A stretch of DNA of 32,040 nt from Rhodospirillaceae bacterium (GTDB taxonomy: Bacteria > Pseudomonadota > Alphaproteobacteria > GCA-2731375). The notes beneath the pieces are model-generated. The model did no database searches and was not told the DNA's origin. It saw nothing but the letters and a program-made list of their open reading frames with translations. Shown piece after piece: positions 10,116-13,077 of this stretch (positions are counted from its first letter, which is position 1; every line of letters begins with the position of its first letter). The stretch covers positions 1 to 32,040 of the forward strand of contig PCBT01000025.1 in NCBI GenBank assembly GCA_002731375.1. The letters are read 5' to 3'. Position numbers and translations under genes: made by a program.

Positions 10116-10540
10116 TTAGACGCGGTCGGCGCCGTAGTACAGCATCACCTTGTGCTGGGCCTCGGTGAAGAACAGCCAACGCTCCAGAACCACGCCGAGG
10201 CTGACGGACACCGCCGCCAATGCCGCCGCAATTAGGCCGAGTTGGCCGGACGTTGCCGCCTGGATCACGATCAGGAGCAGCGGCACCAGAAACGCCAACA
10301 TATGGGTCAGACGGCGCAGCTTGCCAGCATGCTTCCGCGCCACGGTAAAGCCCATTTCCTTGAGCAGGTAATTGTCCTGCATATGGGGCGGATCAAGTGG
10401 GCGCACATTGCCAAGGCTTTCCAGCCCGGTGGCGGAGGCAATGGTGCTATCACCAACATTGCTATCGATGACGCGCCAATAAGCAATCTTCAACAACCAA
10501 GCCGCCACCAGTGCGATCAAACCTTCATTACCACCGAAAA
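10116..10540 (-). pseudogene. C-terminal fragment of a DmsC-like membrane anchor subunit
   Basis: The reading frame encodes about 140 residues that resemble the C-terminal half of the DMSO-reductase anchor subunit DmsC: KIAYWRVIDSN, the segment after STIASATGLESLG, PPHMQDNYLLKEMGF, ARKHAGKLRRL, then two hydrophobic segments and LERWLFFTEAQHKVMLYYG. DmsC proteins are about 280-300 residues with eight membrane helices; here only the last three or so remain. The similarity stops near 10540, about 30 nt from the stop codon of the selenoprotein gene. Upstream the same frame continues in unrelated residues that shadow that gene. No start codon with a ribosome site fits, and no dmsA or dmsB is present. 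It is best read as a deletion relic. The identification is by remembered family pattern and is fairly strong. Confidence 0.75.
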
Positions 10541-10572
10541 TAGGGTCGGGGCAGGGCTGCCAAGACTTCGAA

Positions 10573-11448
10573 TCAGCCGCCGGTCGCCGCTTCGGCCAAG
10601 CGCTGGTCTTCTTCCAGCTGATAACGCGGGGTCGTATCCCGGGGCGAGCGCACATCGTCGGCGCTTTCGTCCGTAGCCGCCGATTTCCAGGCATCGCCTT
10701 CGGGCCAAGTCTGGTTCAGATTGACGATCTGGCCCGGTTCAGACAAGTTTTCCAATACCGACATGGCCTCCCGTGCGATGGCAAGTTGTTGCTCCGGCGC
10801 AAAAAGTGGGCCGCCGCCATGACCCAAGGGAAAATCGAAAAAAACGGCGCGGGGTGGCGCACCGAACTTAACAATATCCAGGGCCGTACCCACTACTATG
10901 GTGGCAATGCCCCGTTCTTCCAGGTAACGCGCGATCAGACACACGGTCTGATGGCAGACGGGTCACAATGGAACCAGATAGGCGACATCCACGCCCTCGG
11001 CGGCAAAGGCTTCGTATATGGTGGGGGCGACTTCCTCGTCCACGCGCCGTTTGGAATAAACCGCGCCCATGCAGGAGAAGAAATTCTCCGCCAGGCCGCC
11101 GATCACGCCTTCATCCGCCAGCTTCCGCAATGGCTCAATAGGAAAGGCGCAATTAGGATCGCGCCGGGCATCTGGCAGATAATTCTCCGTCAGATGGGAA
11201 AAGCGCAGATTTTCCACCGGCGTATCCGACGGGATCAGCCGATGCGAGGTATCGTCCTTGTAGAAATAGGCCTCCTGCCCGGCCACATAAGTCCCCGCCG
11301 TGGTCATCATGCCAACGCGGCATTCCGACAGCGGTTTAGCCAACCGTGCCCACGGCGGCGTATCCGTCGCCTCGTGCCAGCCATAGGGAGCATAGCCCAT
11401 CTTGCTATACTTCTCCCTGATGGTTCTCATATATTCAACCGTGTTCAC
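10573..11448 (-). CDS. PrdB/GrdB-like reductase, putative selenoprotein (in-frame UGA)
   Basis: The frame encodes a protein of the glycine/betaine/sarcosine/D-proline reductase selenoprotein B family: AKPLSECRVGMMTTAG, RLIPSDTP, RFSHLTENYL, DPNCAFPIEPLRKLADEGVI, then GVDVAYLVPL, and after the stop PVCHQTVCLIARYLEERGIA and FTDFPLG-like FFDFPLGHGGG. One in-frame UGA (10965-10963, codon 162) sits where relatives carry the first Cys of CxxC, so the motif reads U162-P-V-C165. Read through, the product is 291 residues with normal family continuity on both sides. The GTG at 11448 has a consensus AAGGAG 7 nt upstream; the TTG at 11472 does not. In anaerobic clostridia these enzymes reduce amino-acid substrates together with a pyruvoyl subunit and GrdA, none of which is seen here. 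The substrate in this organism is unknown. It follows the acyl-CoA dehydrogenase gene by 54 nt and is probably cotranscribed with it. A plain nonsense mutation is the alternative. Confidence 0.85.
10934..10965 (-). promoter_or_regulatory. Candidate bacterial SECIS element after the in-frame UGA
   Basis: Beginning 11 nt after the UGA (10963-10965), the mRNA can form a perfect 7-bp stem, AUCAGAC (10952-10946) with GUCUGAU (10940-10934), closing a 5-nt loop CGUGU whose second base is G. The loop starts 18 nt after the UGA. After a single C-C mismatch the stem can extend by about three more pairs. These values fit the known bacterial SECIS rules: loop of 3-14 nt, a G among its first two bases, and 16-37 nt between UGA and loop. 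This is the site SelB would recognise for selenocysteine insertion. Confidence 0.75.
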
Positions 11449-11455
11449 GGCTATA

Positions 11456-11461
11456 CTCCTT
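11456..11461 (-). promoter_or_regulatory. Shine-Dalgarno site fixing the GTG start of the selenoprotein
   Basis: The minus strand reads AAGGAG followed by 7 nt and GTG (11448-11446). The in-frame TTG at 11472 lies upstream of this site and has no ribosome site of its own, so translation is placed at the GTG. Confidence 0.8.
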
Positions 11462-11502
11462 ATCCTGCTCAAGCTTCATATTAGGCCAGCCTGGGACCAT
11501 GC

Positions 11503-12645
11503 TCAACCATCGGCAAGTGCCCGGGAAATTACAATCTTCTGGATATCATTGGTGCCTTCATAGATACGGTAGACACGAACATCGCGGAGGATCTTGGCAA
11601 CCGGGAAATCCTCCAAGTAACCGTAACCGCCGAAGGTCTGCATGGCGGCGGAAGCCACCTTTTCGGCCATGTCCGAGGCGAATAGCTTGGCCATGGAGGC
11701 TTCTTTCAGGCTGGGCGCACCACTGTCGTGGATTTCAGCGGCATGCAGATACAGCCGCCGCCCGGCCTCGATCTGGGTTGCCATCTCGGCTAGGCGGAAG
11801 GCCACCGCCTGATGTTCCATGATCGGTTTGCCAAAGGCTTCCCGTTCCTGGGCATAGGCCAACGCCGCCTCGTATGCGGCCCGTGCCCCGCCCACGGCCT
11901 GGGCGGCAACACCGATACGGCCCGCTGAAAGGTTCGCCAGAGCAATCCCGAGGCCGCGGCCTTCCCGGCCCAGCAGATCGGAGGCCGGGACCACCATATC
12001 CTCGAAGGCCAAGGCACAAGTGTCGTTGGTGCGGTGGCCCAGCTTACCTTCCTCGCGCAGCACCTGATAGCCCGGATTATCCGTCGGTGTCAGGAATGTA
12101 GAGATGCCGCGCTTGCCCGCGTCCGGATCGGTGACCGCGACAATCATGGCGACATCGGCGCGGCGCCCGGCGGTGATGAAGCTCTTGCGACCATTCAGAA
12201 CAAAATTCCCGCCGTCCCCCCCAGTACGTTGCGCGCGGGTCAGAATGGATGCGGCATCCGATCCTGTATGGGGCTCCGTCAAGGCAATGCAACCGATCGT
12301 CTCTCCGCTGGTCAAGCCGGGGAAAAAGCGCTGCTTTTGCACTTCAGTACCGTGGTCGCGCAGGGCCGCCAAAACCGGTGAATTGTTCGCCGCCATCAGA
12401 TTGGCAATACCACCGTCGGCGGCTGAAATCTCCTCCATGGCCAGGACGTAAGAGACGAAATCCGCCCCGGCCCCACCCCATTCGGGATCAGTGCAGATAC
12501 CCATCAGGCCTGCCTGCCCCATTTTGTGCAGCAGCTCCCTTGGCACGCCTGATTTGTCCCACTGCTTGATATTGGGGAGGATCTCAGTCTTGGCGAAACG
12601 CCGCGCCGTATCCTGGATCATTCTCTGTTCGTAATTCAGGAGCAT
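11503..12645 (-). CDS. Acyl-CoA dehydrogenase
   Basis: This FAD-dependent acyl-CoA dehydrogenase (380 residues, standard size) removes two hydrogens from an acyl-CoA thioester and passes electrons to electron-transfer flavoprotein. Visible features are the N-terminal helical domain starting MLLNYEQRMIQDTARRFA, the FAD/substrate segment ALTEPHTGSDAAS, MQTFGGYGYLEDFPVAKILRDVRV, and the catalytic base E363 in IYEGTNDIQ. The frame stays open far upstream, but those residues belong to the other-frame end of the DUF427 gene, so the ATG at 12645 is chosen. It lies one base after that gene's TAG, indicating coupling. Chain-length preference cannot be read. Downstream, after 54 nt, comes the putative selenoprotein. 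Confidence 0.94.
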   Translation of the reverse strand: MLLNYEQRMIQDTARRFAKTEILPNIKQWDKSGVPRELLHKMGQAGLMGICTDPEWGGAGADFVSYVLAMEEISAADGGIANLMAANNSPVLAALRDHGTEVQKQRFFPGLTSGETIGCIALTEPHTGSDAASILTRAQRTGGDGGNFVLNGRKSFITAGRRADVAMIVAVTDPDAGKRGISTFLTPTDNPGYQVLREEGKLGHRTNDTCALAFEDMVVPASDLLGREGRGLGIALANLSAGRIGVAAQAVGGARAAYEAALAYAQEREAFGKPIMEHQAVAFRLAEMATQIEAGRRLYLHAAEIHDSGAPSLKEASMAKLFASDMAEKVASAAMQTFGGYGYLEDFPVAKILRDVRVYRIYEGTNDIQKIVISRALADG

Positions 12646-12646
12646 G

Positions 12647-13077
12647 CTATCTGGCGGAACTCCTGCCAGCGACCATGAAAATCTCCGCCTCCTCCTCATA
12701 CCAATGATCCATACGGTCCCAATAAAATGCCACATAATCCTGGATCTCGGCGGTCTCGGGATAGGGCGAGGGATAGCCCCAGACGGCGTTCTCCGCCTCC
12801 CTGTCGCCAACCTTCACGCTCCAATAGGCAGCACATCACCCTTGAAGGGGCAGTGGGTGACATAGTCCGTCACGGCCAGCAAATCCTGGCGCACATCGGC
12901 AAGGGGGAAGTAATAGACCGGGTCGTGCTTGCTTTCGCACAAATACTGCACGTGGGTGGAATCCACGATAGTCTCGCCATTGAAGACGACACGGATGCGT
13001 TTCGGACAAGCCTCGAAATGCACATCATAGTCGGGGTGCTTGTCATAGAGTGATGAGCGCTGGGCGGTCTCTGTCAT
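12647..13077 (-). pseudogene. DUF427 domain protein, frameshifted
   Basis: The first 80 or so codons encode a DUF427 protein (HVQYLCESKHDPVYYFPLADV, then THCPFKGD), a small beta-barrel-like family of unknown function. Right after KGD the frame ends as VLPIGA-stop. Shifting frame restores the family C-terminus, YWSVKVGDREAENAVWGYP, PYPETAEI, YVAFYWDRMDHWYEE, ending at the TAG at 12649-12647. The break is explained by an extra TG dinucleotide in GATGTGCTGCC (plus-strand 12828-12838): removing it gives D-A-A-Y-W-S-V. It is either a genuine 2-bp duplication or a sequencing error. The intact gene would be about 142 residues. The ATG at 13077 has GGAG upstream and is divergent from the phosphotriesterase homologue. 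The following acyl-CoA dehydrogenase begins one base after the restored stop. Confidence 0.82.

Follow-up and report, generated by a model that had tools for sequence, protein, structure and literature searches.

A PrdB-like gene with an in-frame UGA in a Rhodospirillaceae genome, probably encoding a stand-alone selenoenzyme

The locus and its gene neighbourhood

A minus-strand PrdB-like selenoprotein gene occupies positions 10573..11448 of the window, the whole stretch of 32,040 nucleotides that was analysed. It starts with GTG at 11448, comprises 291 codons and ends with a UGA stop at 10575-10573. The motif AAGGAG (11456..11461, minus strand), 7 nt 5' of the GTG and taken here to be a ribosome-binding motif, is the probable ribosome-binding site. 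The frame contains exactly one internal TGA, codon 162 (10963..10965, minus strand), in the motif VPL-U-PVCHQ, and the site reads UxxC (U162-P-V-C165) followed by H-Q-T. Ordinary ORF calling cuts such genes in two at the UGA, and the ORF list has the halves as two separate minus-strand ORFs, 10963-11472 and 10573-10944. The initial annotation had joined them into one frame interrupted by a single UGA (10965-10963), as translation of 11448-10573 confirms. The source assembly has a size of 4.55 Mb in 115 contigs, with 96.2% completeness and 6.66% contamination. The nearest named records are metagenome-assembled genomes (MAGs), mostly titled Rhodospirillaceae or Alphaproteobacteria, several of them with marine-sounding isolate names.

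Directly upstream, across a gap of 54 nt, lies an acyl-CoA dehydrogenase gene (11503..12810, minus strand; PF00441/PF02771/PF02770) that is probably the operon partner of the PrdB-like gene, and upstream of it a DUF427 gene (12814..13077, minus strand; PF04248). Of the 12 closest named loci (L051-L062, at least 63% identity), 10 have the acyl-CoA dehydrogenase gene upstream, 7 of them at a distance of no more than 80 nt, and 8 have the DUF427 gene there. An MFS transporter gene is directly downstream in 10 of the 12 and a molybdopterin oxidoreductase gene nearby in 5, both identified by Pfam on one representative each. Among the loci examined, the acyl-CoA dehydrogenase/MFS arrangement was seen in none outside this group. 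The downstream side of the window gene holds the 3' remnant of a dmsC-like anchor-subunit gene (10116..10515, minus strand), recognised by alignment with L051; the last 124 aa of its frame align with residues 192-315 of the 315-aa DmsC-like protein of that locus. The rest of the DMSO-reductase-type operon of L051 is absent here, and 4.3 kb of L051 have no counterpart in the window. The missing piece, at window positions 10515-10578, corresponds to the molybdopterin oxidoreductase and the 5' part of dmsC. One edge of the gap directly follows the stop of the prdB-like gene, and the flanking blastn pieces are about 84-85% identical. The absence represents either a deletion or an assembly artefact.

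Other members of the family have other neighbours. In seven loci (L092, L095, L096, L098, L101-L103), which are proteobacterial MAGs or single-cell genomes by title, one of them titled Gammaproteobacteria, the PrdB-like gene ends a mauB-mauE-mauD-mauA-cytochrome c run. By one representative each, MauB, MauE and MauA match their Pfam families, MauD matches thioredoxin-like families and the cytochrome has no match. Since MauA scores 180 against an NCBIfam cut-off of 196.85, 'amine-dehydrogenase-like' is the safe name. The Sec genes that adjoin mau genes fall in two separate subfamily branches, within the sampling of the tree. The paralogues of the window's own genome adjoin Amidohydro_3 and D-serine-dehydratase-like genes (L131), a ThDP enzyme gene (L133), CoA-transferase genes (L134, L136) and an Amidohydro_2 gene (L135). 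Two Sec paralogues, of the UPLDHQ and UPVCHQ subfamilies, lie within 6 kb of each other (L131:1-5665), with the D-serine-dehydratase-like, Amidohydro_3 and DUF169 genes between them. Clustering of ORFs of at least 100 aa within 6 kb, which covered the window and 80 of the named loci, many on contigs that end nearby, gave lineage-specific partners only and no partner gene common to all orthologues. The differing neighbours suggest different small-molecule substrates and not one housekeeping role.

Decoding of the in-frame UGA

Comparison of sequences indicates that codon 162 is almost certainly decoded as selenocysteine, which would make the two halves one enzyme; the reading draws on a conserved site and on the co-occurrence of the gene with selA. 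The initial annotation had proposed a search of the genome for selA, selB, selC and selD. All are present, each over its cut-off: selA with 580 bits, selB with 366 bits, selD with 381 bits and a tRNA-Sec of anticodon tca with 73 bits. The selA gene adjoins selB. The tRNA-Sec search also gave matches in all 14 control genomes, above cut-off in only 5; in the own genome 2 of 14 matches pass, the second being a tRNA-Ser. The own selD is itself of Sec type, with one in-frame TGA (L018:1501-2427), and a second selD match above cut-off lies within a stop-free open frame of 756 aa (L019).

The TGA form of the gene and the Sec machinery occur together across the class, as judged from selA, the one machinery gene on which the class-wide comparison rests. 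The survey took in 387 genomes that are 90% complete or more, searched at E 1e-15 with scoring limited to 6 candidates per genome. A selA match over cut-off was found in 38 of 40 genomes with a TGA form, in 0 of 13 with sense-codon forms only (Fisher p 1e-10 for this contrast) and in 28 of 333 without any family match. A 14th sense-only genome, G216, was left out, its match being a fragment that ends before the site. The site codon was read in 6 of the 13 sense-only genomes and is Cys in all 6; a seventh Cys gene that was read, L148, comes from a genome (G104) that also carries TGA forms and selA. A survey of relatives gave selA in 15 of 17 genomes with the gene as opposed to 3 of 44 without it. 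A TGA form with no selA match over cut-off was found in G244 and G287 of the class and in G003 and G025 of the relatives; the listed completeness is 100% for G244 and 77-95% for the other three. The match in G287 contains two TGAs. Recent loss of Sec decoding is possible in G244 and G287.

A bacterial SECIS-type hairpin (10931..10955, minus strand) follows the UGA and is supported by core pairing and by compensatory changes at 4 pairs. Its 7-bp stem (10952-10946 / 10940-10934) begins 10 nt 3' of the UGA and closes the loop CGUGU (10945-10941); two outer pairs are formed by 10955-10954 and 10932-10931. The 5-bp core pairs +16 to +20 with +26 to +30, the U of the UGA being +1. In a first set, made up of 80 of the named loci, the 8 genes of the own genome, Peptoclostridium PrdB and two Cys genes from plasmids, the core is paired in 75 of 78 Sec genes versus 1 of 13 Cys genes. 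The Sec genes without the core in the same register are L109, the own paralogue L017 and Peptoclostridium PrdB. A second set gave 14 of 15 Sec genes versus 0 of 7 Cys genes; L155, which has no site, was dropped from it, and the L137 protein is the same as L068 of the first set, so that 6 of the Cys genes are new. L123, from an uncultured Rhizobiaceae, has a Cys codon and one other in-frame stop and retains the SECIS core pairing; it may have switched from Sec to Cys recently or be in decay.

The two sides of the core change jointly, giving the variants CAGAC/GTCTG, CAAAC/GTTTG, CAATC/GATTG and CGCGC/GCGCG. Covariation was measured on 28 rows picked for diversity from 77 proteobacterial Sec rows, including all 8 own genes and both rows of the 77 that fail the core. 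Pairing is present in 95.6% of cells, and 4 pairs have changed on both sides, in 19 cells. The covariation score is 0.267 against a shuffled mean of 0.146, a value reached by 0 of 500 shuffles; of the five covariation measures, the one that counts further pair types does not exceed the shuffles (147/500). Slid registers are 24-35% paired. Folded alone, the 44-nt stretch of the window has the SECIS hairpin as its centroid structure, and another, competing fold has the lowest energy; a 61-nt stretch folds weakly (z -1.46). The G of the small loop matches one described as typical of bacterial SECIS elements (PMC1088965).

The protein search found 8 members of the family in the own genome, each with exactly one TGA inside the match and at the same motif, which reads UPVCHQ in five of them and UPLDHQ, UPNCTR and UPLCTR in the others. 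Matches are present in 17 of 61 relatives (own genome counted), with 6-11 per genome in 11 genomes of the genus. An in-frame TGA is carried by 96 of the 98 matches, one of which (in G003) also has a TAG; the remaining 2 (G004, G008) are short pieces in which the site is not covered. Of the named loci, the 71 nearest (L051-L121) have a TGA at the aligned place in 69 cases and a Cys codon in 2 (L068, L112), a ratio that comes from a biased survey, as the named loci, at least 80 in all, were gathered by peptide patterns. L105 carries a second TGA further on. Alignment with homologues, also proposed at the outset, shows Cys or Sec at residue 162 in 27 of 27 rows, clostridial PrdB among them. In a quick tree of 70 rows, Cys forms are nested among Sec forms in several subfamilies, with a minimum of 6 changes, and the window's own subfamily includes the Cys forms L068, L112 and L137. 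Orthologues 51-53% identical to the query occur in MAGs titled Klebsiella pneumoniae and Bordetella parapertussis (L076, L080, L114, L119), and these titles are probably wrong. The long form of the family (L016, L017, L035) reads UP-x-C-T-R in the own copies, with open frames of 410 and 429 aa; the part of L017 after the UGA has no Pfam match.

Substitution patterns indicate purifying selection on the part of the gene 3' of the UGA. The dN/dS ratio 3' of the codon is 0.10-0.35 in 11 of 11 comparisons, all of which share the window gene and some of which have dS values above 1; 5' of it the ratio is 0.07-0.28 in the 10 computable comparisons. The ratio is mostly higher after the UGA than before, and protein identity is 0.47-0.87 after versus 0.58-0.93 before. 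The lower downstream identity would fit a less constrained C-terminus and not untranslated DNA.

These observations also bear on the two ways in which the UGA might have no link to selenium. It could be a nonsense mutation or a sequencing error, the halves then being the remnants of a pseudogene. A single in-frame stop has just such an appearance, and the adjoining dmsC is truncated in the same assembly. However, an in-frame UGA is carried by the 7 other own paralogues and by the best match in each of the 10 genus-mates, purifying selection persists beyond it, the hairpin is broken in 12 of 13 Cys genes and selA co-occurs with the UGA forms, which together leave a pseudogene a negligible probability. 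The open frame alone would equally allow the UGA to be read by near-cognate suppression or to be reassigned to Trp or Cys. That is extremely unlikely, as UGA also terminates the same gene, tRNA-Sec and SelB are present, and both the hairpin and the selA co-occurrence track the UGA.

Family placement and missing partners

The initial annotation assigned the product to the PrdB/GrdB reductase family. The gene is indeed a homologous relative, but it is not PrdB itself. The best curated family is TIGR04483 (PrdB), with 138.5 bits; the cut-off is 300, and the control PrdB of Peptoclostridium reaches 310.2. The match to PF07355, the GRDB superfamily, has 21.7 bits (E 1.4e-4) against a gathering cut-off of 22, and the paralogue L016 scores 46.4 bits. 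In the 70-row tree, the six PrdB rows (5 Sec, 1 Cys) group together with full support, and the window gene lies outside their branch. The window's 32-row group, the UPLDHQ group, the long forms and a second UPVCHQ group of 23 rows all stand apart from PrdB; the order of PrdB and the long forms relative to each other is uncertain, as long branches are flagged between the two. An SCMG Cys and a C-terminal segment around PRD...P-x-Y/F-Q occur in the window's group and are absent from the Peptoclostridium PrdB row. The earlier description of a redox motif holds for UxxC with U162 in first place. The UxxCxxC motif given for the GrdB family (PMC13188914) is not found, as the window gene reads U-P-V-C-H-Q-T and the further Cys of GrdB is missing; Cys165 is not universal either, since one own-genome paralogue has UPLDHQ.

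The earlier statement that no reductase partner lies in the window can be extended to the genome. PF09338 (PrdA/GrdE) and PF04723 (GrdA) gave matches in 0 of 15 draft assemblies, namely the own genome, 10 genus-mates, 3 family-mates and G041. The positive-control records of Acetoanaerobium and Peptoclostridium match, with the PF09338 matches beside prdB, and prdA is close to prdB in annotated regions of Ligilactobacillus, Enterococcus and Terrisporobacter. With PrdA/GrdE and GrdA not found in these drafts, D-proline and glycine reduction by the known reactions is scarcely feasible here. The product is very probably a stand-alone redox enzyme of the PrdB/GrdB superfamily. A true D-proline reductase subunit whose PrdA had been missed would explain why TIGR04483 is the best family and why the Sec aligns with the clostridial Sec. 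This is very unlikely, given a score far under the cut-off that Peptoclostridium PrdB passes, a fully supported PrdB branch that excludes the window gene, and the lack of any PF09338 match in the 15 genomes when both control records were positive. D-proline reductase is the nearest curated name, and the tests made here do not support it.

Several known systems resemble this stand-alone enzyme. UGA-containing 'PrdB' genes were reported from sea-water metagenomes in 2005 and 2008, where they were among the commonest selenoproteins of the Sargasso and GOS data, with 42 Sec genes in the Sargasso set and 235 Sec and 110 Cys homologues in GOS (PMC1088965, PMC2398784). These genes of Zhang and Gladyshev share the UxxC, the in-frame UGA, pfam07355 and a bacterial SECIS element; in the accessible text they are labelled PrdB and come without genome partners, numbers of paralogues per genome, subfamilies or operons. 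Likened by description, the window gene probably belongs to that pool and here has a genome context. Clostridial PrdB is homologous and has Sec at the aligned site; the differences lie in N- and C-terminal extensions, in separate branches of the tree and in PrdA, which was not found for the window protein. GrdB, GrdF and GrdH (TIGR01917, NF040794, NF040795), the substrate-specific protein B of glycine, sarcosine and betaine reductases, align in their C-terminal Sec-bearing part with 24-33 bits; their models have 431-435 positions versus 291 aa in the window, and GrdE-type and GrdA proteins were not found here.

A further parallel, compared by description, is FarB/FarE of Cloacibacillus porcorum, in which a GrdB-type predicted Sec protein is reported to cleave fluoroacetate (PMC10838667). 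The FarE partner is without pyruvoyl processing, the far operon has an MFS transporter, and that one anaerobe genome has eight predicted-Sec grdB copies (PMC10838667). The likeness lies in a GrdB-like predicted Sec protein with a substrate other than an amino acid, an MFS transporter and multiple copies; unlike the window's genome, that of the host belongs to an anaerobe and supplies FarE as partner as well as a GrdA system. A 2016 survey reported 131 proline reductases in 110 organisms, about one per organism (PMC5029168), and a 2006 account listed Alphaproteobacteria with one selenoprotein family, FdhA (PMC1794560). Among the titles and abstract openings listed from the literature, in which subscription papers are thinly covered, none describes the subfamily in alphaproteobacteria, which is weak evidence of novelty. 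What is apparently new is a conserved stand-alone subfamily, with 6-11 family matches per genome in one genus and members beside different catabolic genes.

Proposed chemistry and lifestyle

An AlphaFold2 model, built with 11 orthologues and with C replacing U, has a pLDDT of 82 and a pTM of 0.87. Residue 162 is predicted to follow a strand (155-159) and to precede a helix (163-178), and Cys165 lies three positions further along in the model. A nucleophile is often found at such a place, at the start of a helix that follows a beta strand. A fold search of the PDB with the model found no solved structure at E <= 0.001; 988 matches up to E 10 were scattered over unrelated folds. The best PDB sequence match (E 0.066) was at chance level.

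We are highly confident in the overall explanation, an intact gene for a stand-alone Sec enzyme of the PrdB/GrdB superfamily whose decoding is directed by a hairpin. Sec162 would be inserted by the cell's own SelA, SelB, tRNA-Sec and SelD, directed by the hairpin after the UGA. Our best guess for the product is a selenol-dependent reductive enzyme. Its selenolate might attack an electrophilic atom of a small substrate at a C-N, C-halogen, C-S or heteroatom bond; by analogy, no pyruvoyl partner would be needed if the target bond is already activated. Cys165 or another thiol could then resolve the intermediate as a Se-S bond, and a dithiol reductant would reset the enzyme. For the window copy, a role in a catabolic step linked to the neighbouring acyl-CoA dehydrogenase is probable, and its paralogues would serve other pathways. 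For D-proline reductase, a review describes a mechanism, which it terms hypothetical, with a pyruvoyl adduct, in which Sec attacks the alpha carbon of the substrate and a thiol cleaves the selenoether (PMC10298544). Reductive bond cleavage is, by this analogy, a tentative proposal for the chemistry, to which we give somewhat less than an even chance.

The main competitor is a general antioxidant role, as a thiol peroxidase or disulfide reductase with a Sec-Cys couple and no specific metabolic substrate. The UxxC motif and the haem-copper oxidases of the host speak for it, as does the prominence of Prx-, Trx- and Grx-like families reported among marine selenoproteins (PMC2398784). It is nevertheless unlikely, because the own paralogues adjoin differing catabolic genes, which points to different substrates, and because the homology is to substrate-specific reductases. 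Cys165 is, moreover, missing from one paralogue; the UPLDHQ subfamily has Asp in its place, so not every paralogue can work by a UxxC redox cycle.

All 14 genomes tested for it have a haem-copper oxidase, in keeping with the initial description of the organism as likely aerobic. Other evidence favours a facultative lifestyle over a strictly aerobic one: several record titles among the closest loci (SI072, SI074, Arabian10, BS150m, casp150), which we read as low-oxygen sites, and the DmsABC-type (DMSO-reductase-type) operon that adjoins the gene in some relatives. The lifestyle is probably aerobic-capable and facultative. Taken at its broadest, the proposal is of a family of one-component Sec reductases in oxygen-respiring bacteria, each paralogue cleaving its own activated bond (C-N, C-S or C-halogen) for its own catabolic pathway, with neither a pyruvoyl partner nor a GrdA carrier. 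We regard this as possible but doubtful. If it is true, selenium-based reductive bond cleavage would belong to the ordinary metabolism of marine heterotrophs and would not be special to anaerobes that ferment amino acids.

The subfamily is now resolved at the level of genomes, with a natural comparison of Sec and Cys forms and a controlled partner search in which the canonical partners were not found. It also has defined neighbours, acyl-CoA dehydrogenase and MFS genes in the window's genus and methylamine-dehydrogenase-like genes in seven other proteobacterial MAGs. The role of the marine 'PrdB' selenoproteins, a question since 2005, thereby becomes directly testable with single purified proteins. 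The Sec region of Peptoclostridium PrdB (P0004) weakly resembles the UGSC family of selenoproteins (E 4.7e-4, a score far under the family's cut-off), and the UGSC and PrdB-type families, both abundant in marine data, may be related.
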